Assembly (NCBI GenBank): GCA_029936395.1
Contig: JAPYSW010000008.1
Coordinates: 1-41,184 of the forward strand
Reading direction: 5' to 3'
Origin: Candidatus Poseidoniia archaeon
GTDB lineage: Archaea > Thermoplasmatota > Poseidoniia > MGIII > CG-Epi1
DNA: 41,184 nt
Shown piece after piece: positions 6,143 to 20,312 of the stretch; position 1 is the stretch's first letter; every line of letters begins with the position of its first letter. Under the pieces are notes generated by a model. The model did no database searches. It saw only the letters and a program-made list of their open reading frames with translations, and was not told the DNA's origin. A program made the translations under genes and the position numbers.

Positions 6143-7429
6143 ATGGCTGAAAGCGATAAAATAGTTAGTGTAATTACTTGTGATGTTGAAGGGCGTATTG
6201 AAACTTTCAACGAGAATGCAGAAAAATTATTTGGTTATTCCGCAGATGAACTTATTGGTAAAAAAAGAGTTTCCCTTTTCTCACCAGGAATGGTTGTACT
6301 AGGGCACATTGAAAACTGGTTGAAAAATGCTCGAGAAAATAAAAAAGGACATAACACTGAAACCGTCTTCGTTAGAAAAGATGGAAGCGAATTTGCAGCT
6401 AAAATAACACTTACTGCAACAGTGAAAGATGGGAAGCATATCGGATATTGTGGCAGAACTACTGAGTTAGCAGATGTATCTCCTGCAGATGCAATGCCTG
6501 AAACTACATTATTAACAAAATTTATATCTATTATAGCAATAACAAGACTACCCTTTCTAAGTGCAACATGGATTCCGATTATAGCGAGTATTGTTTGGGG
6601 CATCAAAAGTGAAGTTATAACCGATTTTAATTGGTACACTTTCACACTAATTTTTCTAGGTGGTTCTTTCTTACATCTAGCTGCAAATACTTACAATGAC
6701 TATTTTGACTGGGAAAGTGGTACTGATCAATTGAATAATGATTATTTCCTACAATTATCAGGAGGTAGTAGGGCCATTGAGCTAGGCCTAATTACTGAAA
6801 AACAACTATTCAAATTAGCAACAATATTTCTTTTCCTCTCAGGACTTTTAGGTTTAGGGATAATGACTACTATTGATGAAAATAAGTTTGAATTATTATA
6901 CTATGGACTCGCTGGAGCATTTTCAGCTTATTTTTATACAGGATATCCTCTACGATTAGTAGCAAAAAATGGAATTGGTGAACTTTTAATTGGCTTGAAT
7001 TATGGACCTTTAATGACCATGGGATCTGTTTTTGCCTTGACAGGAATACACAGTTGGGAAGCCTTCTACTTTGGTATCCCATTTGGCATATTGACAACTG
7101 CAATATTGTGGATTAATCAATTTCCTGATAGAGCATCAGATAAAATTGCAGGTAAAAACCACTTAGTAGTTATGCTAGGATTGAAACGATCAAGTTGGGG
7201 CTACCTAATTTTAATGATATCTGCATTTACATCAATTTACTTACTATTTCATTATCAAATAGTTGAAAAAGGAGCACTTCTTGGATTATTAGGACTGCCT
7301 ATAGCATTATACTATTCATATCAAGTTATGACAAAGTTTGATACAAGGGAACTAGCTGGAGCTAACTGGGGAACTATAGGGATACATTCTATAACTGGAA
7401 CATTACTGATTCTGGGTATGTACATATGA
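6143..7429 (+). CDS. PAS domain fused to UbiA-family prenyltransferase (MenA-like)
   Basis: N-terminal PAS/PAC (VISVITCDVEGRIETFNENAEKLFGYSADELIGK...VFVRKDGSEFAAKITLTA). C-terminal UbiA with NTYNDYFDWESGTD and DRASDKIAGK Asp motifs and multiple TM helices. ORF called from TTG 6131; the ATG at 6143 is more likely. Confidence 0.88.
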   Translation: MAESDKIVSVITCDVEGRIETFNENAEKLFGYSADELIGKKRVSLFSPGMVVLGHIENWLKNARENKKGHNTETVFVRKDGSEFAAKITLTATVKDGKHIGYCGRTTELADVSPADAMPETTLLTKFISIIAITRLPFLSATWIPIIASIVWGIKSEVITDFNWYTFTLIFLGGSFLHLAANTYNDYFDWESGTDQLNNDYFLQLSGGSRAIELGLITEKQLFKLATIFLFLSGLLGLGIMTTIDENKFELLYYGLAGAFSAYFYTGYPLRLVAKNGIGELLIGLNYGPLMTMGSVFALTGIHSWEAFYFGIPFGILTTAILWINQFPDRASDKIAGKNHLVVMLGLKRSSWGYLILMISAFTSIYLLFHYQIVEKGALLGLLGLPIALYYSYQVMTKFDTRELAGANWGTIGIHSITGTLLILGMYI

Positions 7430-8424
7430 AAGATTTAATACAAAATAACAATAACAAACTTCGGAAATTGCACAAAGATGAGGTATTAGATGACTTAAGT
7501 GTTTACTATAATAAAGTTAAAAATGAATTTGAAAATCACATTAATAGTGAATTATCGAAAGAACCACAAGAGATAGCGTCTCTACTAGAATCAGGATTAA
7601 ATGGTGGGAAAAAACTCAGACCCGTCCTATGTAAACTGGTTTCAGATTCATTAGGAGGAGACACACATTTAGCATTCGAATGTGGGATGGCACTGGAATT
7701 AATACACAGTGGAGCTCTAATACATGATGATTGGATTGATGGAGATAAATTTCGAAGAGCAGCACCATCTTTGTGGAATGAATTAGGATCAAGAACTGCA
7801 GTACTAGTTGCTGATTTGATGGCTGCTACAGGATCACTTCATGGAGCAATATCTATTGAAACTGGAAAATCTTTAGCAAGGTGTGTTAGAAATTTATCTG
7901 AAGGAGCTATTGCAGACTTTACAGATAAAGAAAATTACAGTGAATCAGTTTATTTACATCGAATTAAAAGAAAAACTGGAGCACTCTACAGTACCGCTGC
8001 TGAATTAGGTGCTTTGGTCTCTCCAAGAACTAATCTCGCTTCAGACATGTACAAATATGGTGAATGTGTAGGAATAATATATCAAATAACGGATGACTTT
8101 TTAGATTTATTGAATTCATTGATAACAAAAACAGCAGTTGGTGATTTAGCTCTTAAAATACCAACGCTTCCAGTTACCAGATTAAGCCGCTATTCTGAGT
8201 ATAAAGAAGTAATAGATGAATTTACTTTAAACGGCAATTCGGAACCATTAATACAAACTATTGAAATAAAACATGCTCAAACTATTTTTGAAGAACTAGT
8301 TAAGCCATGGCAAGACATGTCACAACGATTCCTGACAGAAGTCCCTGAATCAAAATATAGAATCCTTCTTCAAAAAGTACCCCTTGCCTTCGCTAATGAA
8401 TTAATTAGTACAGATACGAATTAA
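7426..8424 (+). CDS. polyprenyl diphosphate synthase (GGPP/heptaprenyl synthase-like)
   Basis: GGKKLRPVLCKL, first Asp motif HDDWIDGD with FRRAAP, second Asp motif ITDDFLDL. Overlaps the ubiA stop by ATGA. Confidence 0.9.
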   Translation: MKDLIQNNNNKLRKLHKDEVLDDLSVYYNKVKNEFENHINSELSKEPQEIASLLESGLNGGKKLRPVLCKLVSDSLGGDTHLAFECGMALELIHSGALIHDDWIDGDKFRRAAPSLWNELGSRTAVLVADLMAATGSLHGAISIETGKSLARCVRNLSEGAIADFTDKENYSESVYLHRIKRKTGALYSTAAELGALVSPRTNLASDMYKYGECVGIIYQITDDFLDLLNSLITKTAVGDLALKIPTLPVTRLSRYSEYKEVIDEFTLNGNSEPLIQTIEIKHAQTIFEELVKPWQDMSQRFLTEVPESKYRILLQKVPLAFANELISTDTN

Positions 8425-8681
8425 AATTTTCTCAAATGTCGCCTTGGAGGCTTAGATACTTTGACATCTCCCTTCATAATTGTATCTGAATCTAACTTTT
8501 TACTTTCTCCTGAAAATATATAATATGAATTGACTTTACTAAATTCTAAACCTTCTTGTTGACAAGAATTCTTCATTCGAGATCTAAAAGTGTCCTTCTT
8601 AGAATGGTTTTTCCCTTTAGGAGTAATACCTTCCCACAAATTGTTAAACTGTAAATAATTTACACTTTTTTTATCAATCAT
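8421..8681 (-). CDS. small basic protein of unknown function coupled to nuoN
   Basis: 86 aa; start overlaps the nuoN stop (ATGA). No family recognised by eye. Confidence 0.55.
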   Translation of the reverse strand: MIDKKSVNYLQFNNLWEGITPKGKNHSKKDTFRSRMKNSCQQEGLEFSKVNSYYIFSGESKKLDSDTIMKGDVKVSKPPRRHLRKF

Positions 8682-10171
8682 CCCATTAAGGCTATTGCAG
8701 CCTCCTTACATATTTCAAAGAGAGATTGCCAATATAATGGGAAAATAATTCCCAATAATAATATAGTCATTAATGAAATATATCTTATCGAACTAGGAAA
8801 TACAACCTCTTTAGCTTCGACGGGCTCATAAAGATACATGTATCTTATTATTTTGAGATAATAGTACAATGATAATGCTGAATTAAGAACACCTGCAATT
8901 ACCAAAGCTATAATCCAAGTTTCGCCAGATAAACCTGCTTGAAGTGTACCATAAAATAATAGGAATTTACTAATGAAACCTGCAAACGGAGGAATACCTA
9001 CCAATGAAAGAAGACAAACAGTCATAGAAAGAGCTAGCAACTGTGAACGCTGAGCTAAACCTTTGTAAGAGTCTAAGCTATAACCTAAACCAACGGCACC
9101 CAATCCAGCCACTACCACAAATGCTCCACCTTTCATAAATGCATGAATCAAAGTATGAGCAATAGCACCAGACATTGCATCATCCGTCATTGCTGGAATT
9201 GCAATCATAATATATCCTGCTTGAGCAATAGAAGAATAAGCTAACATACGACCTATATCTTCCTGTGATATTGCTGCCAAATTACCAAGAGTCATAGAAG
9301 CGAGTGCAACAAGTCCCAAAACTAATTTCCACTCTTCAGATACTGACTCAAGAGTAAACGAAAATACCCTAAATATTGCAATGAATCCCATTGCTTTACT
9401 TGCTGCCGCCAATAATGTTGTTACGGGTGTTGGAGCACCTTGATAAACATCAGGAGCCCAAGCATGGAAAGGAACTACTGCTATCTTGAAACCTAAACCA
9501 GCAAGTATGAATAAACTTGATATGAAAATAACCTCATTGAAATTACCCGTTATTACACCTTGAGATAATCCATCAATAAATGCATGAACTCCATCAAATG
9601 TTAATGATCCTGTAACTGCATAAAGTAAAGATATTCCATAAAGTGTCAAAGCTGAAGAAAAAGCACCAATCAATAAATATTTTGCACCAGCTTCAGCAGA
9701 TTTGTCATCTTGTTTTCTAAAAGCCACTAAAGCATAACTGCTAAACGCTGAAATCTCAATACCCAAAAAAAGAGTTAAAAAATCATTAGCTGAAGCTACG
9801 ATTAACATCCCTAAAGTACTTGACAATAAAAGTGTGTAGTACTCAGCTTGATGTGGTTCATCTTCATCAAAATACGAACTGCTTATCAATGAAACTGTAA
9901 GAGCTACAAGAACAAAAATAATTTTAAATATTTGAGAGAAAATATCTATCTTAAAATGTCCATACAACAAAAACATTGAAACTTCTCTATCCATAGATAG
10001 AACCTCTGGATTAAACCATGAAACAATAAGGAATAACAGAATACTAGTAAGTGTCAAATTAGAGCATAAAGCGAAAGATTTCTTAGTTTCTGTTAACATG
10101 TACAAACCAGGTATAGTCATTATGCTAGCGACAAGTATTATTTCTGGCAAAAACAAATTAGATGGTTCCAT
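8678..10171 (-). CDS. nuoN: complex I subunit N
   Basis: 497 aa proton_antipo_M protein. FKIAVVPFHAWAPDVYQGAPTPVTTLLAAASKAMG; operon position. Confidence 0.95.
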   Translation of the reverse strand: MEPSNLFLPEIILVASIMTIPGLYMLTETKKSFALCSNLTLTSILLFLIVSWFNPEVLSMDREVSMFLLYGHFKIDIFSQIFKIIFVLVALTVSLISSSYFDEDEPHQAEYYTLLLSSTLGMLIVASANDFLTLFLGIEISAFSSYALVAFRKQDDKSAEAGAKYLLIGAFSSALTLYGISLLYAVTGSLTFDGVHAFIDGLSQGVITGNFNEVIFISSLFILAGLGFKIAVVPFHAWAPDVYQGAPTPVTTLLAAASKAMGFIAIFRVFSFTLESVSEEWKLVLGLVALASMTLGNLAAISQEDIGRMLAYSSIAQAGYIMIAIPAMTDDAMSGAIAHTLIHAFMKGGAFVVVAGLGAVGLGYSLDSYKGLAQRSQLLALSMTVCLLSLVGIPPFAGFISKFLLFYGTLQAGLSGETWIIALVIAGVLNSALSLYYYLKIIRYMYLYEPVEAKEVVFPSSIRYISLMTILLLGIIFPLYWQSLFEICKEAAIALMG

Positions 10172-12081
10172 TAGAGTACTCCCATAAATATCAAAATATC
10201 ATAACAAGCTGTATTAATTGGATCCATCAAATAATGTGGAAAAATACCGAATATTGCTGCGATAATTATTATTGTAAACATAGGATATAATTCATACCAT
10301 GGAGCTTCATGAACCTTACTCATTTCTATTTCTTCACTATCCGTTCCAAAAATTGCCCTTTGAAGTGCCCAAAGATGATAACCGGCAGTTATAACCATAC
10401 CAAATATAGGCAATAATAACCAATAACCATGAGATTGAAAGAAAGCTATGAAAACAGCCAATTCAGCTACAAAAACAGCCATTCCAGGCAAACCAAGGCT
10501 ACCCATAAAAATCACAACAAAAATACCGGTAGTTTTTGGTTGGTGCCTTGCTAATCCCCCGAGTTTAGGTATTTCTCTTGTTCCCACTTGATGAAGTAAA
10601 ACCCCAGCAATCATAAACATTGCAGGACTTAGAATACCATGAGCAAACATCATGAAAACAGCTCCAGCTAAACCTAACTCAGTCATTGTTGCAACACCAA
10701 GTAATGCAACGCCCATATGGGAAACACTGGAATAAGCTACTAACTTCTTCAAATCAGTTTGTCCTAAACTCAAAACTGCGCCGTATAAGATAGATATAAT
10801 GGCTAAAGCCACCATAACTGGAACAAAATAGACTGCACCTAGCGGTAATACGGGTAATGCAGCTCTTATTAATCCATAAAGCCCCATCTTAAGCATAACA
10901 CCGGCCAATAAGATAGAACCAGCAGTTGGGGCTTGAACATGCGCATCTGGCAACCAAGTATGCCATGGGAATGAAGGTATCTTAACTGCGAAACCAATGA
11001 ATAAAGCAGCAAAAACCCAAATTTGGAAATTTTCTGAAAAAGCCTCATTATTTATGGATAATTCTCTACTACTATTTGCAATATCAATCATAGAAAAAGA
11101 ATTTGCCCCAGACTCAAAGTATAAGGCCATGAAACCTACCAACATTATTACTGAAGCTGTAAAAGTGTATATGAAAAATTTAATAGAAGCATATCTCCGA
11201 TCATCTCCACCCCATATTGCAATTAAGAAAAACATAGGTATAAGAACAATTTCCCAGAAGATATAAAATACAAAATAATCAAGTGTAACAAACACGCCAT
11301 AAAGTGCAGTTTGCATAATTAAAAGCAAACTAAAGAAAAGTCCAGGTCTCTCTTTTTCTTCCCAAGCAAAAATAACTGTTAATGGTCCTATTATTCCAGT
11401 TAATAAAATAAGTGGAGAACTTAAGCCATCAACACCAAGTAACACTGAAATGCCAAGATTCGGTGCCCATTCATATTCCTCCATCAAACTATAACCTGAT
11501 TTAGAACCGGTCTTCATAAAAACAATTAAAGATATAATTAATGTAAACAAAGTAGTGAACAAAGCAATCAATCTAGGGGCATTAGGTGTATTCCCGAAAC
11601 TAATAGACCAAAGGGCCCCGATAATAGGAAATACTAAAAGATAAGATAGCCAAGGAAAATCACTAAACTCCATCGATATTTCAGGAAGTGGTAATGAACC
11701 TGAACCAACTATTATTGAGCCACGCATATTCATCGTAGCGTGAGGTTCACAAACATAATACAAAGTCCCATCCTGTGCTGTAAAATCAGCAGGAAGCGGC
11801 CAATTACCGCCAACTTGAGGATTACCTGAATAGAAACCAGATTCATAATTATTAGATTCAGAATCTGAGACTTGTGCAACATTATGAGATCCATTGCCCC
11901 ACACAAATAAGACATTATCACCAACTTCAACTTCCAAAACATTTGGATCAAAAAAATAGGAAGTGAAATCATCTGATTGAGTAACTGTTACAGTATGGTT
12001 TTCAGCTTCAACATTACCTGAAAACAGAACCAACATAGCAAATAACATAAAAAACCCTAAAAACTTATTCAAATTGACCAC
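10171..12081 (-). CDS. nuoM: cupredoxin (plastocyanin-like)-NuoM fusion
   Basis: Signal peptide plus GSHNV...YYVCEPHATMNMRGSIIV type-1 copper motif (aa ~27-126), then NuoM (IPSFPWHTWLPDAHVQAPTAGSILLAGVMLKMGLYG). Confidence 0.93.
   Translation of the reverse strand: MVNLNKFLGFFMLFAMLVLFSGNVEAENHTVTVTQSDDFTSYFFDPNVLEVEVGDNVLFVWGNGSHNVAQVSDSESNNYESGFYSGNPQVGGNWPLPADFTAQDGTLYYVCEPHATMNMRGSIIVGSGSLPLPEISMEFSDFPWLSYLLVFPIIGALWSISFGNTPNAPRLIALFTTLFTLIISLIVFMKTGSKSGYSLMEEYEWAPNLGISVLLGVDGLSSPLILLTGIIGPLTVIFAWEEKERPGLFFSLLLIMQTALYGVFVTLDYFVFYIFWEIVLIPMFFLIAIWGGDDRRYASIKFFIYTFTASVIMLVGFMALYFESGANSFSMIDIANSSRELSINNEAFSENFQIWVFAALFIGFAVKIPSFPWHTWLPDAHVQAPTAGSILLAGVMLKMGLYGLIRAALPVLPLGAVYFVPVMVALAIISILYGAVLSLGQTDLKKLVAYSSVSHMGVALLGVATMTELGLAGAVFMMFAHGILSPAMFMIAGVLLHQVGTREIPKLGGLARHQPKTTGIFVVIFMGSLGLPGMAVFVAELAVFIAFFQSHGYWLLLPIFGMVITAGYHLWALQRAIFGTDSEEIEMSKVHEAPWYELYPMFTIIIIAAIFGIFPHYLMDPINTACYDILIFMGVL
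11704..12003 (-). other. type-1 blue-copper (plastocyanin/halocyanin-like) domain at the N-terminus of NuoM
   Basis: HTVTVTQSDDFTSYFFDPNVLEVEVGDNVLFVWGNGSHNV...TLYYVCEPHATMNMRGSIIV. Ligands His, Cys, His, Met in canonical spacing C-x2-H-x4-M. Confidence 0.88.
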
Positions 12082-14249
12082 CCCATAATTGGCATGACTA
12101 TTCGAGTAATCAGAACTATAGCCCCCAGCCCACCTACGGTAAGAGAAGCATAATGTCCAGTAAAACCTGAATTTAACTTTCTAACTTCATTGCTAAAGAA
12201 CTGTGTAATGCTTGCAGTTGCATTTACTAATCCATCAACTATATTCCTATCAAACCAATCACATGCTTGCGCAAAAGTATCCCAAGTCCTCATTCCAAAC
12301 CAATCGAATAATTTAGCCATATACATTCTATTGGACAAGAAAATATGAAGAGGTCCAAAGACAATATTATCTGAAATAAAAGATGTCGAAAGTATAGATT
12401 TACCATCGCTTCCACGTTTGTAAAATAAATATCCTAGAGTAACACCACTAAGACCAACAATTACTGATAAATAAGTTAAAGAGGAGGAAAGAATATGATC
12501 AATAATTTCCCACTGTATTGGCCCTTCTGTACTTTCATGATGACCAAAATATATTCTTGAACCAAAACCTTCACCAATAAATAATAAAAATCCTGAGAAA
12601 ACAGCCATAAAAGCTAAGAGCATAAGAGGTATTGTCATTACTAATGGAGCCTCATGAGCATGAATCTTGACTTCTTTCTTAGATAATTCCCAGTTACCAG
12701 TGCCTTCATGGTCTTTAGATGGTTTCATTTCACTAATTTTCCGAGTATCAGGACCACTAAAAGTCATCATCCAAAGCCTTGTCATGTAAAAGGCAGTCAT
12801 AGCAGCAGTCAGTAAAGCAAGCCACCACAAGATTCCAAAAATACCTTCAACTTCACCATTACGATGAACTGCTTCTAATATTTCATCCTTAGACCAGAAA
12901 CCTGAAAAGAAAGGAACGCCGGCAATAGACAGTACCCCAAGACCCATAGTCAAAGAAGTAATTGGCATAGATTTCCTCAAACCACCCATCTCTCTCATAT
13001 CCTGAGTATGTACTGAATGTATAACTGCGCCAGCACCAAGGAAAAGTAAAGCCTTGAAAAAAGCATGATTCATTAAATGGAATAACCCCGCAGTATATCC
13101 TTGAACGTGATGAATCTCTAAACCAGCTTCAGCTGCATGCCAAAACGCCCATGCACCAGTTCCAAGTGCTAAAAACATATAACCTAACTGAGAAATTGTG
13201 GAATAAGCTAATACTCTCTTAATATCATTCATAACCATTGCCATGCTTGCAGCAATGAAAGCAGTTACACCACCAGTAACTGCAATATAAATTGCAGTAT
13301 CGGGACTATGAACAATCAGTGGATAAGCTCTAGCAACTAAGAAAACACCTGCTTTTACCATAGTTGCAGCATGTATCAAGGCTGAAACTGTGGTTGGCCC
13401 CTCCATAGCATCTGGAAGCCAAACATGTAAGGGAAACTGAGCAGATTTACCTACAGCTCCACCGAACAAACAAAGTGTTGCCCACTTTACCTCAGTTGCA
13501 TTAGCAGCTAATAATTCAGGATCACTAAATAATTCCGAATATCTAAGCGTACCAAAAGTATTGAAAAGAATAACTAAACCTAAAAGTAAGAATACATCTC
13601 CAACACGTGTTACCAGAAAAGCCTTTTTTGCAGCTGATGCTGCAGACGGTTTTTCATACCAGAATCCAATCAATAAATAAGAACAAACTCCAACCAATTC
13701 CCAGAAAATAAACAACAATAAAAATGAATTCGCAATAACCAAACCAAGCATTACACCAACAAATAAACATATCTCTCCAAAGTATCTAACTTGTCTATCT
13801 CCTTCTTCATGCATATAGCTTATAGAAAATAATACAACTAAATATGAAACAAAACCAACTACTAAGAGTAAAATTGCAGCCAAACTATCGATATATGTAC
13901 CAAACTCAAATGAATATGTTTCACCTCCAAACCAAGTTCTAGTAGACTCAATAAATCCACCATGTAAAGAATCTTGGAAAAGAACCTCATAAACAACAGC
14001 CATAGAAAATACTGAAGAAAGTCCAACACCAATTAAAGCAAACAAACCTCCTCTTCTTGGATCATACATTCCAAATAAGATAATCAAGGCAAATGAAATT
14101 ATAGGAAATACAGGTATCATCCAAGCTACACTTACAAAATCTGCAGATAATTGGTTTGTGAAAACATAAAGTAATAATAAAGCAAAAAGAATACTTCCTA
14201 AAACTACTGCAATAATATCAGAATCTGACTTACTATCCTTACTACTAAT
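12069..14249 (-). CDS. nuoL: complex I subunit L, probably starting at non-canonical ATT 14249 (the ATG at 14120 is the track call)
   Basis: NuoL motifs FPLHVWLPDAMEGPTTVSALIHAATMVKAGVFL. The open frame continues upstream of the called ATG to the nuoK stop and encodes ISSKDSKSDSDIIAVVLGSILFALLLLYVFTNQLSADFVSVAWM. An SD-like GAGGTGG precedes the ATT. Confidence 0.85.
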   Translation of the reverse strand: MSSKDSKSDSDIIAVVLGSILFALLLLYVFTNQLSADFVSVAWMIPVFPIISFALIILFGMYDPRRGGLFALIGVGLSSVFSMAVVYEVLFQDSLHGGFIESTRTWFGGETYSFEFGTYIDSLAAILLLVVGFVSYLVVLFSISYMHEEGDRQVRYFGEICLFVGVMLGLVIANSFLLLFIFWELVGVCSYLLIGFWYEKPSAASAAKKAFLVTRVGDVFLLLGLVILFNTFGTLRYSELFSDPELLAANATEVKWATLCLFGGAVGKSAQFPLHVWLPDAMEGPTTVSALIHAATMVKAGVFLVARAYPLIVHSPDTAIYIAVTGGVTAFIAASMAMVMNDIKRVLAYSTISQLGYMFLALGTGAWAFWHAAEAGLEIHHVQGYTAGLFHLMNHAFFKALLFLGAGAVIHSVHTQDMREMGGLRKSMPITSLTMGLGVLSIAGVPFFSGFWSKDEILEAVHRNGEVEGIFGILWWLALLTAAMTAFYMTRLWMMTFSGPDTRKISEMKPSKDHEGTGNWELSKKEVKIHAHEAPLVMTIPLMLLAFMAVFSGFLLFIGEGFGSRIYFGHHESTEGPIQWEIIDHILSSSLTYLSVIVGLSGVTLGYLFYKRGSDGKSILSTSFISDNIVFGPLHIFLSNRMYMAKLFDWFGMRTWDTFAQACDWFDRNIVDGLVNATASITQFFSNEVRKLNSGFTGHYASLTVGGLGAIVLITRIVMPIMGWSI

Positions 14250-14250
14250 A

Positions 14251-14553
14251 TTACCACCTCAACCTATTGAGTAAATCTAACTCAATCGTGTCTCTTTGCT
14301 TAAACAAACTCAATAATATAGCTAAACCAATAGCCACCTCAGCTGCTGCAATTGTCGTTACAAAAAGAACAACTATCTGACCAGATAAAACATTGTAAAA
14401 AGTTGAAAAGGCTACAAAATTTATGTTTGCGGCAGTTAACATTATTTCTACAGACATTAAAACAACAATCGCATTCTTATTACGAATAACACCATAAGCT
14501 CCAATTAATAGCAATATTGAAGAAAAAACTACAAAATTAATAGGATCAATCAT
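14251..14553 (-). CDS. nuoK: complex I subunit K
   Basis: 100 aa. IGAYGVIRNKNAIVVLMSVEIMLTAANINFVAFS is classic NuoK. Confidence 0.95.
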   Translation of the reverse strand: MIDPINFVVFSSILLLIGAYGVIRNKNAIVVLMSVEIMLTAANINFVAFSTFYNVLSGQIVVLFVTTIAAAEVAIGLAILLSLFKQRDTIELDLLNRLRW

Positions 14554-15358
14554 CTTTCTCCTCCCTAGCTAAGAAAACACCAGCTTGTAATGCAATAACC
14601 ATTAGAACACCTAGTAAAATAAATGGGACTTCCCAATCATTAAATAACTCAAAAGCCAAAAATTTAGTAGTGTCTATATTTACAGATCTAACTTCAGAAT
14701 ATTCTGAAGTAAATCCTTCTGAATCAACTGCATAAACCGTCCACGAATAAGTTTCTCCTCTAATGAACTCAGAATAAGTATATTTTGTATCCTCTAAATT
14801 TTCTACTTGAAGAACTAAAGAGAATGAATCTAGAGAAACTGCGTCATATTTATCGGTACTTATTTGCTCATTTAAATTTATTATCAAAGTATATGTTACT
14901 GTTACTATGGGCCAATTTACTAAAAGTTTAGAAGCCGTATCAGTAGTGTGTACCTCTGTAAACAATAAAGGCATTTCCTCTATTCCATCTCCTAATGAGC
15001 TTCCAGACATTCCAATATAATAAACATTAGAAGTGTAGTTACCTGAAGGCAATCTTGGTGTTTGAGATTCATTAGCAGTAATGTTCACTTCATACATCAA
15101 TTCTCCATCACTGTTCAATACAATGTGCCTATAACCTACTGAAACCGGAACCCATTCAAATTCAACAGAATCGCTGTAATGATAATAGCCATTCTCAGGG
15201 AAAATTGGAGAGGGAGCGCATCCATAGTTACAACTGTTTGAATTTTCAGATTCAATTGCTAAATTATTCCAAGGAGCTAAGGCAAGAGAAACTACCACGT
15301 AGAATGAAAACGTAATTACTAAAGCATCTCTAACCCATATTATACTTCTACTAGACAT
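14546..15358 (-). CDS. nuoJ: C-terminal half of split NuoJ carrying a large extracytoplasmic insertion
   Basis: Two TM segments (ALVITFSFYVVVSLALAPW and WEVPFILLGVLMVIALQAGVFLAREEKDD, like the NuoJ C-terminus) separated by ~200 polar residues with repeated beta-sandwich-like strands. ATG 15358 preceded by GGAGGTG. Confidence 0.75.
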   Translation of the reverse strand: MSSRSIIWVRDALVITFSFYVVVSLALAPWNNLAIESENSNSCNYGCAPSPIFPENGYYHYSDSVEFEWVPVSVGYRHIVLNSDGELMYEVNITANESQTPRLPSGNYTSNVYYIGMSGSSLGDGIEEMPLLFTEVHTTDTASKLLVNWPIVTVTYTLIINLNEQISTDKYDAVSLDSFSLVLQVENLEDTKYTYSEFIRGETYSWTVYAVDSEGFTSEYSEVRSVNIDTTKFLAFELFNDWEVPFILLGVLMVIALQAGVFLAREEKDD

Positions 15359-15614
15359 CTTCACCTCCTTTTAATGTTCTCTTAGTTAACATAATTCCAA
15401 AAATAATCACTACCGATATAGCACCAACATAAACGAGTACTTGTATAACTGCTAAAAATTCAGCATCAGCAATAATAAACAAACATGCAGTCAAAAGAAA
15501 AACTGTAGCCAACCATACAACCGAGTGAACGATATCATTACCATTAACAACTGCCCAAGCCGAAGCAAGAATTAATGACGCTAAAAACCAAAAAATCAAC
15601 AAAACTAAATCCAA
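15351..15614 (-). CDS. nuoJ: N-terminal half of split NuoJ
   Basis: 87 aa with three TM helices. VIQVLVYVGAISVVIIFGIMLTKR is the NuoJ TM3 signature. Confidence 0.88.
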   Translation of the reverse strand: MDLVLLIFWFLASLILASAWAVVNGNDIVHSVVWLATVFLLTACLFIIADAEFLAVIQVLVYVGAISVVIIFGIMLTKRTLKGGEDV

Positions 15615-15617
15615 AAA

Positions 15618-16394
15618 TTAAGCCTCCTGCGAAGTTTCGTCTGGAATTAACCCACTGGAACTTGAGTTGCTTATTGGTTCCATGTGCAGACAATCAGCAG
15701 GACAGACCTTGACACAAGTTGAACACCCGATACAAATAGTGTAATCGAAATATGGATTCTCGACATTACGAGTCTTTCCACTTTTCATTGTTTTATTCTG
15801 AGGCCCTAAATCCATGATGATACAATTTGTTGGACAATTATCGACACACTTACTGCATCCAATACAAGGGTCTGCATCAAGAACTGGAGATTCCATCATG
15901 TAATTTGTGAGAGGTAATTGAGGTAAGTCCTCTAATTCTACTTTCATAGATCTTGCAGGATAAATTAAACCTTCACGGTTAGTATCTGCTAACTCATAGA
16001 AATCAGTCATAGTCATGGCTCCAGTAGGGCAATAATCTTCACAGAAACCACAAAACATACAATGTCCAAAATTTATAGCAGGTCTTTCAGCTTTACTCTT
16101 TCTCTTTGCTAAATGAGAACCATACCAAGCTCTATCTTTTTCTTGTTCTGATAAATCTTCAGGTTTCATCTTAAGACACTTATTAGGACATACTTCACCA
16201 CAAATACCACAACCAATACATAAATCCCAAATTACTGCATTCATACCTCTATAGGTTGGAGGCGGATCTCTTCTTTCAAGAGGATACATCACCGTTGTAG
16301 GTTTACCAAACGTTGATTTGAAAAACTGTTTTAGCGTAACCTTCATTGGATTCACAAAAATATCCATTAAACCGGGTTCTCTTTCGTTACTCAT
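15618..16394 (-). CDS. nuoI: complex I subunit I with four [4Fe-4S] cluster motifs
   Basis: CIGCGICGEVCP, CMFCGFCEDYCP, CIGCSKCVDNCP, CIGCSTCVKVCP within 258 aa. Confidence 0.93.
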   Translation of the reverse strand: MSNEREPGLMDIFVNPMKVTLKQFFKSTFGKPTTVMYPLERRDPPPTYRGMNAVIWDLCIGCGICGEVCPNKCLKMKPEDLSEQEKDRAWYGSHLAKRKSKAERPAINFGHCMFCGFCEDYCPTGAMTMTDFYELADTNREGLIYPARSMKVELEDLPQLPLTNYMMESPVLDADPCIGCSKCVDNCPTNCIIMDLGPQNKTMKSGKTRNVENPYFDYTICIGCSTCVKVCPADCLHMEPISNSSSSGLIPDETSQEA

Positions 16395-16395
16395 A

Positions 16396-17628
16396 TTAGA
16401 ATACCTCCGGTAATGTAATTATATTTGAAAAATAAGGATATATCTCTACCATCAATATTACAATCAAAATATTAATTAATGATAAAGGTAATAACTTTTT
16501 CCAACCAAGCTCAAGAATTTGATCTGTGCGTATTCTTGGAACTGACCATCGAATAAATATCCAAAATATTATAATCAAATATACTTTTATCAAAAACCAA
16601 ATCTCAGGTGGAACTGGCCAAGGACCGGCCCAACCCCCTAAAAACAAGATTGTAGCTACTGCAGCACCCGCAAAACCACGTATATATTCAGCTGCAAGGA
16701 ATAACATATATCTAATTCCGCTATATTCCGTAGTCCAGCCTTCTACTAATTCAGCTTCAGCTTCAGGTAAATCAAATGGAACTCTCTCTACTTCAGCAAG
16801 AATACAAATCATAAAAACAATAAAGCCTATAAATTGAGGAATAATATTCCACATAGGTAGACCAAACAACCAAGTGCCTTCCTGCTGTTGTTCTACAATA
16901 GTGACAGGATCAAAAGAACCAGCTAGAAGAAAGACTCCAGCCATACTCAATAAAAGCGGAATCTCATAAGCCATTAATTGAGCTGCCGACCTCATTCCTC
17001 CAATCATTGAATATTTATTATTAGATGCCCAACCGGAGGTTAATACTCCAATAGGCGCTATAGAAAAAGCAGCCATAATTACCATTAAGCCTGCAGGAGC
17101 TGAAGAAGCTGCAAATCTATCAGATAACGGAAATAACACTAATAAAAACACTGAAGATGAAATAAATATTATAGGACCCATTGTAAACAAAAAACGATCG
17201 GCTTTAGTAGGTACAATTAATTCCTTTGTGATTGCTTTAATCCCATCAACCAGATTTTGTATAATTCCAATTCCACTATAATTATCCTTAAATTTCCAAG
17301 TAGGAGCTTCTCCCGCTAAATCTTCTTTTAATTCTCTTAATGATCTTAAAGATAACATTGGCCCTCTACGATCTTGTATACGGGCTGCAATTTTTCTTTC
17401 CAAATGAATAACTAAAATTAGATTAGTCATACCAACCATAAAAGCTATATTCACAGCATATGTCCAAGCTAAAGTATCTAGCCCACCATCCGTCCCTAAC
17501 CAATCTGCGACAGAACCCGCAGGGTTACTAAATGGCGGAAATAAACCTGCTTGAAAATTAAAAATAGGTATTAGAAGATATTCGGCAGTCCATTCCGCCA
17601 TTGACCGACACGCAGTAAATAAACTCAC
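16396..17628 (-). CDS. nuoH: complex I subunit H
   Basis: ERKIAARIQDRRGP, GWASNNKYSMIGGMRSAAQLMAYEIPL, ERVPFDLPEAEAELVEGWTTEYSGIRYMLF. Confidence 0.96.
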   Translation of the reverse strand: MSLFTACRSMAEWTAEYLLIPIFNFQAGLFPPFSNPAGSVADWLGTDGGLDTLAWTYAVNIAFMVGMTNLILVIHLERKIAARIQDRRGPMLSLRSLRELKEDLAGEAPTWKFKDNYSGIGIIQNLVDGIKAITKELIVPTKADRFLFTMGPIIFISSSVFLLVLFPLSDRFAASSAPAGLMVIMAAFSIAPIGVLTSGWASNNKYSMIGGMRSAAQLMAYEIPLLLSMAGVFLLAGSFDPVTIVEQQQEGTWLFGLPMWNIIPQFIGFIVFMICILAEVERVPFDLPEAEAELVEGWTTEYSGIRYMLFLAAEYIRGFAGAAVATILFLGGWAGPWPVPPEIWFLIKVYLIIIFWIFIRWSVPRIRTDQILELGWKKLLPLSLINILIVILMVEIYPYFSNIITLPEVF

Positions 17629-18725
17629 TTATCAGTCTCCCCTATACAAATATCAATACTACCCATTATTGCCGGAATATCTGCTAATTTGTAGCCTTTA
17701 AGATAATGTGGACAAGCTGACATTGTAGTGAACATAGGGCTCTTGATTTTCCACCTATAAGGCCTATCTGAACCATCTCCAACTACATACATCATTGCTT
17801 CACCTCTTGAATCTTCAGTTCTACGGAAAGCCTCACCATGAGCTCTAACTGGAATCCGAGAAGCCAATGTAGCGCCTGCTGGCATTTTCTTAAAACAATC
17901 ACGAATAATACGAACTGATTCCTTCATTTCATCTATTCGAACCATATAACGGCTGAAACAATCACTATAACCAGGACCTGCCTCTCTAGTCGAAATATCC
18001 CAATCAATTTCCTCATATATTTCATAAGTATCATGCTTTCTCAAATCAAACTTAGTGCCGCAACCTCTCAAGTTGGGCCCAGTAATTCCAAAATTCTTTG
18101 CTTGTTCAGCTGTAAATTTACCAACGTCATCTGTACGCATTCTGAATATTTTTGAATTTTCAAAGAGATCCGAATACTCATCAAGTCTTTGCTCAAATAA
18201 CTTAAGTATTCTTTCGGTTTTTTCTTCAAAACCATTAGGTAAGTCTCTCTTAACTCCACCTATTCTAATAAAATTATAAAGTAAACGACTGCCACTTGGT
18301 AGTTCTAATAAATTAAGGAAAAGCTCTCTGTCTCTCCAGAAATAAAGTGCACCCGTAATATGCCCCAAATCGGGCATGTAAGCTCCAGCCCACATTAGAT
18401 GTGACGCTAGTCTCTGCAATTCTAACATTATTGTGCGAATATATTGTGCACGGACTGGAACTTCAACTTCCATTAATTCTTCAACTGTATGAGTGTAACA
18501 ATGTGTCCAAGTAGTTGAACTTGCATAACATAGTCTATCAGTTAATGTGGTATTCATAAAGTATTTTCTTCGTTCCCCCATCTTCTCAACTGAGCGATGA
18601 AGATAACCTAATTCTGGATCGGCATCAACGATTGTTTCACCATCCACTTTTACTTTAAGCGTCCAAAGACCATGAGTCATAGGATGTTGAGGACCCATAC
18701 TAATCCACATTTCAGCCATTACCAC
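17625..18725 (-). CDS. nuoD: complex I subunit D (49 kDa)
   Basis: [62 protein letters not shown]. Confidence 0.96.
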
Positions 18726-19192
18726 TCCTCCTCGTGTATTTCATACACATAATCTTTTCTGAGTGGATGGCCTGCAAACCCTTCTGGTAAAAGAACCCTA
18801 CGCAAATCAGGATGCCCAATAAAGTAAATTCCCATTAAATCAAAGGCCTCTCGCTCATGCCAATCAGCTCCAAACCATATATTTGCAATTGAATCTACAC
18901 TAGGTGCCTCTCTCTTGAGATATATGTGAGCTTCTAACATGACTGCACAATTACTATCATCAACAACAATTGATTGGTTCATGCAAGAAAAATGATAGAC
19001 TAATTCAAAGTCTGGTTGATTATCTATAGCACTAATCAATGAACAATGTTCAAATTCGGATTTTATACTAACAAAAAAATCTAGAGACTCCTCTTTGGTC
19101 AAATCTAATTTAACGGTATTCTTTCTTATCTTAGAGATATTAGAAACTCCTTTAGAAGATGACAGTTGTTGCATAAATTCATCAATGTTCAT
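18719..19192 (-). CDS. nuoC: complex I subunit C (30 kDa)
   Basis: [40 protein letters not shown]. Confidence 0.94.
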
Positions 19193-19193
19193 A

Positions 19194-19835
19194 TTAACGC
19201 CTCAGGAACATACCTGGCTCTTTGGCCCTAATCTTCTTCTGTAAAGTTAAAAATCCATGCATCAAAGCCTCTGGGCGGACTGGACAACCTGGAATGTAAA
19301 CATCAACTGGCATAAATGTATCGGCTCCAGCAACAACTGAATAAGAATCCCAATAAGGACCACCTGAAATTGCACATTCACCCATTGCAATAACCCATTT
19401 TGGTTCTGGCATTTGTTCATACAACGTCTTTAGTTTTGGCCTGAGTTTTTCACAAACAGGACCATTTACTATCAAAACATCACACTGACGCGGTGATGAA
19501 CGATAAACCAAACCAAGCCTGTCAATATCATGATCCGGAGCTGAAGCTTGTCCCATTTCAATTGCACAACACATAATTCCAAAATGTAAAGGATGAGGAG
19601 ATAATCGTTGGGCAAAATTAAAAATTGGCCTAGTAATCCTATCTACAACCTCTCGCATGCCTGTAAATTCAGCTACATTATATACTGAATTATCAATCCA
19701 TTCCAAAAGCTGATCTGATCTCAAAGCCAACCAATCACCGGCAGGAGGATCTTCCATTATCTTATCAGAATCTGTTGTTTTAGAACCAACACCTCTTCTA
19801 AGATTTGGATTACCTCTTACTTTTTTTGAGCTCAT
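19194..19835 (-). CDS. nuoB: complex I subunit B (N2 cluster)
   Basis: [52 protein letters not shown] 19835 (MSSKKVRGN) overlaps the nuoA stop; the track start 19952 is an over-extension. Confidence 0.95.
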
Positions 19836-20191
19836 ATCCAGATGACATCCTCCTTCTTGAAAGCATACCACAACCCCAATAGAGTTAAAAGTAAAAATAA
19901 CATCATTACTATCTTTGCAGCAATTGCCAACTGAAGATATACTTGTACCCAAAGAATCAAAAATACCACCACTAAATCAAATACTAAAAATAAAATTGCA
20001 AACATGTAATATTGAAAGTGAAATTGAATGTGAGCTTCCCCCATAGGAACTTCTCCACACTCATAAGTAGAATTTTTGAGAGCATTATCATTATGTGGAC
20101 GGAAGAACCTTCCGATAAAAAATGTCATTATAGGAAATGATAGCGCAATAAGCGCAAAAATCCCTATAGGGATGTACTCGTGTCCCAGCAC
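19832..20191 (-). CDS. nuoA: complex I subunit A (start probably GTG 20191; track start 20269)
   Basis: YIPIGIFALIALSFPIMTFFIGRFFRP...NSTYECGEVPMGEAHIQFHFQYYMFAILFLVFDLVVVFL. A TATA-like tttaatag lies ~22 nt upstream of GTG 20191, consistent with a leaderless start. Confidence 0.9.
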   Translation of the reverse strand: MLGHEYIPIGIFALIALSFPIMTFFIGRFFRPHNDNALKNSTYECGEVPMGEAHIQFHFQYYMFAILFLVFDLVVVFLILWVQVYLQLAIAAKIVMMLFLLLTLLGLWYAFKKEDVIWI

Positions 20192-20312
20192 GAATACCCT
20201 TTTGTCTAACCCTATTAAAAGAGTTCGGATAATGTCCAAAATATATCTAAAAAAAATATGCCAAACCATAACTACACCTATCTTTCTGCTAAAGTCCTGA
20301 AAAAGGTGAATA

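Follow-up and report, generated by a model that had tools for sequence, protein, structure and literature searches.

A NuoI with four [4Fe-4S] motifs as a candidate ferredoxin inlet of the headless complex I of MGIII archaea

How electrons reach headless complex I where archaea have no NuoEFG is recognised as an unsolved problem. In cyanobacterial NDH-1, which is likewise headless, ferredoxin binds over NdhI and feeds cluster N6a (PMC7021789). For the Fpo complex of Methanosaeta, PMC4153887 cites direct feeding of N6a by ferredoxin, with no extra clusters, and the same paper describes the Methanomassiliicoccales Fpo complex as lacking FpoF; this Fpo-like complex is reported to oxidise reduced ferredoxin, according to PMC7374477, which cites Kroninger 2019. 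Thermoplasmatales lack NuoEF, and in the Cuniculiplasma genome paper (PMC5155288) the electron route is called unknown and the missing NuoEFG is said to raise doubts on the role of the complex in respiration. The passages that we searched in the literature on archaeal headless complexes make no mention of an extra domain in FpoI or NuoI; an earlier description may still exist.

Here we analyse a stretch of 41,184 nucleotides (the window) from a Candidatus Poseidoniia archaeon of the MGIII lineage (contig JAPYSW010000008.1, assembly GCA_029936395.1). It carries a nuo operon with the gene order A-B-C-D-H-I-J1-J2-K-L-M-N, in which nuoI lies between nuoH and nuoJ. The genes, with the basis of each assignment in brackets, are:

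19832..20269, minus strand: nuoA (PF00507)
19194..19952, minus strand: nuoB, with cysteines C128, C129, C193 and C223 (family profiles)
18719..19192, minus strand: nuoC (family profiles)
17625..18725, minus strand: nuoD, no CxxC (family profiles)
16396..17628, minus strand: nuoH (family profiles)
15618..16394, minus strand: nuoI/fpoI, 258 aa, four [4Fe-4S] motifs (ORF translation, family profiles)
15351..15614, minus strand: nuoJ, N-terminal half (family profiles)
14546..15364, minus strand: nuoJ, C-terminal half, extended at its front end by about 200 aa that are probably extracytoplasmic (profiles)
14251..14553, minus strand: nuoK (family profiles)
12069..14120, minus strand: nuoL (sequence as read, operon position in relatives)
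10171..12081, minus strand: nuoM with an N-terminal plastocyanin-like Cu domain (family profiles)
8678..10171, minus strand: nuoN (sequence as read, operon position in relatives)

The four NuoB cysteines are, as we take it from knowledge of the family, the ligands of cluster N2. Since NuoB keeps these N2-type cysteines and NuoD is without CxxC, the operon encodes a complex I rather than a [NiFe] hydrogenase; a group 4 [NiFe] hydrogenase was rejected for the missing CxxC metal ligands of NuoD. As the sequence-only reading had stated, nuoE, nuoF and nuoG are not among the operon genes. Nor was NuoF (PF01512) found anywhere in the organism's own assembly, which is 92.6% complete, using a search that gave matches in nine control genomes; we thus reject a NuoEFG encoded elsewhere in this genome. 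With A, B, C, D, H, I, J, K, L, M and N present and no NuoF found in the assembly, the complex is a headless complex I of the 11-subunit type. Entry through FpoF, as in an F420H2 dehydrogenase (Fpo/Fqo), was rejected as well, because the FpoF-type FrhB/FrhB_FdhB_C domain (PF04432) was absent from 14 of 14 genomes, among them that of the window; three control genomes matched. A polyprenyl (GGPP-type) synthase gene, recognised by eye at 7426-8424 on the plus strand, converges on the end of the operon and is possibly involved in making a quinone side chain or lipids.

The plus strand at 15618-16394 is full of stops and nuoI is read from the minus strand; the sequence-only reading had given these coordinates correctly and had omitted the strand. 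Within the gene, the following parts can be distinguished:

15930..16247, minus strand: NuoI core, aa 50-155, with clusters equivalent to N6a/N6b (TIGR01971 and E. coli NuoI 7nz1_I)
16185..16220, minus strand: Fe-S motif 1, aa 59-70 (C59-P70), CIGCGICGEVCP (invariant cysteines)
16026..16061, minus strand: Fe-S motif 2, aa 112-123 (C112-P123), CMFCGFCEDYCP (invariant cysteines)
15675..15887, minus strand: C-terminal polyferredoxin-like di-cluster domain, aa 170-240 (profiles, PDB matches, model, dN/dS)
15831..15866, minus strand: Fe-S motif 3, aa 177-188 (C177-P188), CIGCSKCVDNCP (invariant cysteines)
15699..15734, minus strand: Fe-S motif 4, aa 221-232 (C221-P232), CIGCSTCVKVCP (invariant cysteines)

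The four motifs that had been noticed in NuoI are all complete CxxCxxCxxxCP motifs, both in the translation and in a mechanical motif check. Not one of the 16 motif cysteines varies in two alignments, one with 15 and one with 38 relatives (34-94% identity); the motifs are therefore not a matter of chance, and this conservation rules out a frame artefact as well.

The N-terminal part of the protein is that of a NuoI: the whole protein scores 135.8 bits against TIGR01971 (cut-off 113.05; aligned aa 24-147), the N-terminal half alone reaches 102.2 bits, just below that cut-off, and the predicted model superposes on E. coli NuoI (7nz1_I) with an rmsd of 3.0 angstrom over 113 columns. The C-terminal half alone gives weak matches to ferredoxin and NuoI-motif models (46 bits at best); among solved chains, it aligns best to the polyferredoxins MvhB and FwdF. 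Pfam Fer4/Fer4_9 matches are in line with a domain of this type. The AlphaFold2 model (mean pLDDT 73, pTM 0.62) predicts it as a separate di-cluster domain with a block pLDDT of 72-89; both cluster domains are well predicted, their mutual placement is uncertain, and the last 16 residues are disordered. On these profiles, structural matches and the model, aa 170-240 is a polyferredoxin-type domain with two CxxCxxCxxxCP motifs and a predicted di-cluster ferredoxin fold, which bears out the extra ferredoxin-like domain proposed earlier. Two clusters, as the sequence-only reading gave for canonical NuoI, are the usual though not a strictly defining property of described members, which stop after the second motif region; as an extension of NuoI, the third and fourth motifs occur in no listed NCBIfam NuoI, NdhI or FpoI model (121-220 aa) and in no PDB NuoI chain. 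Capture of a PorD subunit was rejected as source of the domain: although the whole protein exceeds the cut-off of TIGR02179, the C-terminal half by itself reaches just 36.7 with this model, slightly less than with NuoI models. Internal duplication and fusion of a ferredoxin are both candidates for its origin.

Among 80 named loci, 79 combine four motifs with a headless operon, and the remaining one (L137) reaches beyond the end of its contig. Every full-length MGIII copy that was found has the four-motif NuoI, and so have deep Thermoplasmata and many Methanomassiliicoccales (Methanomassiliicoccus, Methanomethylophilaceae, Methanoplasma), where the four-motif FpoI of the genus Methanomassiliicoccus is shown from MAGs. 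Named matches at 84-99% identity are MGIII archaea or Euryarchaeota bins (UBA136, CG-Epi1, ALOHA MGIII bins), and the CG-Bathy1 NuoI is 78% identical to that of the window, which places the window in MGIII. The C-terminal domain is thus widespread in Thermoplasmatota, contrary to the uniqueness implied by the sequence-only reading, and restriction to this organism or to MGIII was rejected since deep Thermoplasmata and Methanomassiliicoccales share it. Among plasmid records, 150 partial matches to the query were found, none covering 80% of it. One of the MGIII nuo operons (JAKUTK010000150.1) belongs to a bin labelled Pseudomonas sp., and its contig is evidently mis-binned.

In the phylum survey, four motifs are found in coded families f1, f6, f17, f22, f30, f37, f38, f45, f50, f51 and f53, and two motifs in f5, f7, f15, f23, f24, f27, f35, f39 and f46; two-cluster headless complexes occur in MGII-like families and in f27-type families. 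NuoF is absent from 16 of 18 tested genomes, both with and without the C-terminal domain. The two exceptions are genome G007, where a separate NuoD-E-F-G run makes up a 4.6-kb contig that is probably mis-binned, and genome G168, which has a formate-dehydrogenase-like cluster. Since two-cluster headless relatives exist, the four-cluster NuoI does not simply track the loss of NuoEFG; the co-occurrence that the sequence-only reading had suggested surveying is not supported in this simple form, as such complexes are common and NuoF is absent either way.

Two further NuoI variants came up in the survey. One (L175, genome G328, ORF from 6444) has six CxxCxxCxxxC motifs, the additional di-cluster following the NuoI core and preceding the C-terminal domain; in the other (L172, genome G154, ORF from 1864), NuoI is fused to a GltD-like flavoprotein domain, like NCBIfam PRK13984.

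The C-terminal domain is probably homologous across lineages, because profiles built from C-terminal halves prefer other C-terminal halves. The profiles of MGIII and deep Thermoplasmata score mostly 40-82 bits on the C-terminal halves of other lineages and mostly 18-42 bits (best 49) on N-terminal halves; the Methanomassiliicoccales profile scores 49-118 on the C-terminal halves of most lineages and 26-57 on N-terminal halves. The f6 profile, made from two sequences, does not discriminate between the halves, leaving this family uncertain. We also built an unrooted tree from 44 rows and 1013 columns of NuoB, NuoC, NuoD and NuoH, in which two long branches (L171 and L176) are unsurely placed and some of the deep forks are weak. 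The trait clusters strongly on it: two changes suffice for the four-motif label, whereas shuffled labels take 12.2 on average. The two-motif f27/f35/f15/f23 group stands apart on this tree and the MGII-like group falls among four-motif rows; this placement of the two-motif groups suggests that the domain was gained once and then lost in the MGII-like sister families.

Those sister families (f2 and f3) share their class with MGIII, are presumably MGII on that ground, and have two motifs split by a long insert, so that the motif spacing is about 122 residues (L201-L205, L025-L035, L040, L041) compared to 53 in MGIII. In f2 copies, the second motif ends in C-G or C-N and not in C-P. By eye the insert resembles an SH3 domain; Pfam gave no match to it, and an NdhS-type SH3 domain was rejected.

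The apparent loss of the domain in MGII-like families without gain of NuoF, and the abundance of two-cluster headless complexes, would fit an extra domain that has chiefly a structural or regulatory role, or is left over from an ancestor, with electrons entering directly at N6a. A leftover would be expected to lose its cluster ligands, yet 38 relatives of 34-94% identity share every one of the eight cluster cysteines of the C-terminal domain. The domain is also under purifying selection: within MGIII, its dN is 0.02-0.13, with dS near or beyond saturation, compared to a dN of 0.18-0.43 for the last 16 residues. We consider this explanation quite improbable, the leftover version being disfavoured by the invariant ligands.

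We suggest instead, with a probability of roughly 0.6, that the window encodes the NuoI/FpoI of a headless, Fpo-like complex I in which the fused C-terminal di-cluster is a wire for ferredoxin entry. Ferredoxin is the most plausible electron donor in MGIII, and the ferredoxin oxidation reported for the Methanomassiliicoccales complex, whose FpoI has the same extra domain, lends this indirect support. KorAB-like 2-oxoacid:ferredoxin oxidoreductases would make reduced ferredoxin, which would dock on or near the C-terminal domain of NuoI; electrons would then pass from the two C-terminal clusters to N6a, N6b, N2 and a lipid quinone, and quinone reduction would drive proton pumping, the extra domain taking the place of the missing NuoEFG module as inlet wire. 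We infer for this that the C-terminal clusters are assembled and lie within tunnelling distance of N6a. KorAB is found in the organism's own genome on contig C29 (TIGR03710, 427 bits; TIGR02177, 200 bits) and a ferredoxin, closest to the zinc-ferredoxin (ZFX-type) model, on contig C57, all three proteins scoring below their curated cut-offs and KorA being cut off by the contig end. From the inlet interpretation of the sequence-only reading, then, the polyferredoxin-like domain, the headless complex and ferredoxin as the most plausible donor are supported, while uniqueness and the link to NuoEFG loss are not. The inlet idea is the best explanation if taken as a trait of a large archaeal branch, and not as a simple substitute in every case of missing NuoEFG. 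Because gut methanogen relatives share the domain, it is probably an old ferredoxin inlet rather than a one-off; using ferredoxin does not generally require it, as two-cluster headless relatives and direct feeding of N6a exist.

In place of free ferredoxin, the di-cluster might also dock another redox protein, such as a CCG-domain protein of the HdrD/HdrB kind or, directly, a 2-oxoacid oxidoreductase. In PMC7374477, the Methanomassiliicoccales Fpo-like complex is taken to contact HdrD directly, but this contact is itself only proposed. In the organism's own genome (C44:8000-18000), genes for a ferredoxin-like protein with three motifs and for an HdrB/D-like protein with a CCG domain adjoin Rieske/cytochrome b genes, possibly forming a quinone-linked ferredoxin or Hdr-like system, and a related MGIII genome (G001, contig C12) groups two 2-oxoacid oxidoreductases with HdrA-like, HdrC/CCG-like and ETF-like genes. 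Against such a partner, none is fused to NuoI; operon neighbours in relatives were scanned for Nuo genes only. On balance we regard docking of another protein as unlikely, though it is the strongest competitor to free ferredoxin. Complex I-like enzymes are reversible in principle, and the C-terminal clusters could then be an electron store, or an outlet when quinol reduces ferredoxin in reverse; this we hold to be very unlikely.

Returning to the ferredoxin inlet, we put forward tentatively, and at somewhat worse than even odds, a broader proposal: that from MGIII to Methanomassiliicoccales, headless complex I has a five-cluster wire (two C-terminal clusters, N6a, N6b and N2) in NuoI and NuoB that would be the true ferredoxin inlet of these complexes, an independently evolved alternative to NuoEFG, and extendable stepwise, as the six-motif NuoI suggests. 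The conserved fused di-cluster offers a concrete, testable inlet across a branch that includes gut methanogens and ocean archaea, and it shows electron-input modules changing by domain fusion, the added part being one di-cluster, a second one as well, or a flavoprotein domain.

Two other subunits of the operon carry fusions. NuoM starts with a segment resembling a signal sequence and has a Cu domain of the plastocyanin/halocyanin type (PF00127, with a CEPHATMNM-type motif), which is present in 10 of 10 other MGIII operons checked and in none of 12 other Thermoplasmatota operons checked. The extra sequence of about 200 aa in front of the second NuoJ half is kept in MGIII, with ORFs of 246-295 aa, compared to 78-124 aa for the second NuoJ ORF in most other Thermoplasmatota checked. 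The NuoM-plastocyanin and NuoJ-ectodomain fusions are probably MGIII-specific, and the extra NuoJ sequence probably extracytoplasmic. Both fusions, among them that of a copper protein to a pumping subunit of the antiporter type, are more unexpected than the four-cluster NuoI.

The best reading of the four-cluster NuoI is that of a lineage-wide variant of a known headless complex I. It resembles NuoI, Nqo9, TYKY, NdhI and FpoI (E. coli NuoI, Thermus Nqo9, Methanosarcina FpoI) in its N6a/N6b part, fold and place in the operon, but known NuoI, Nqo9, NdhI and FpoI members end after the second motif region, where the window protein continues with a third and fourth motif. The Methanomassiliicoccales Fpo-like complex (FpoABCDHIJKLMN, no FpoF/FpoO) has the same gene order and a four-motif FpoI; its hosts, however, are methanogens with HdrD as proposed acceptor (PMC7374477), whereas MGIII are marine Poseidoniia with Rieske/cytochrome b genes, and the MGIII operon adds the NuoM cupredoxin and the NuoJ ectodomain. 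Cyanobacterial and chloroplast NDH-1 is also headless and is fed by ferredoxin at the NdhI side (PMC7021789), as we infer for MGIII; it has the small accessory subunits NdhS, NdhV and NdhO around a two-cluster NdhI, where the window NuoI has a fused di-cluster. Polyferredoxins such as MvhB and FwdF are free multi-unit wires, while in the window a single di-cluster unit is fused to NuoI (two units in L175). Finally, the PRK13984-type NuoI-oxidoreductase fusion, which L172 resembles, likewise joins NuoI to an electron-input domain, but one of flavoprotein type, whereas the window NuoI has a ferredoxin-like domain and no flavoprotein domain.
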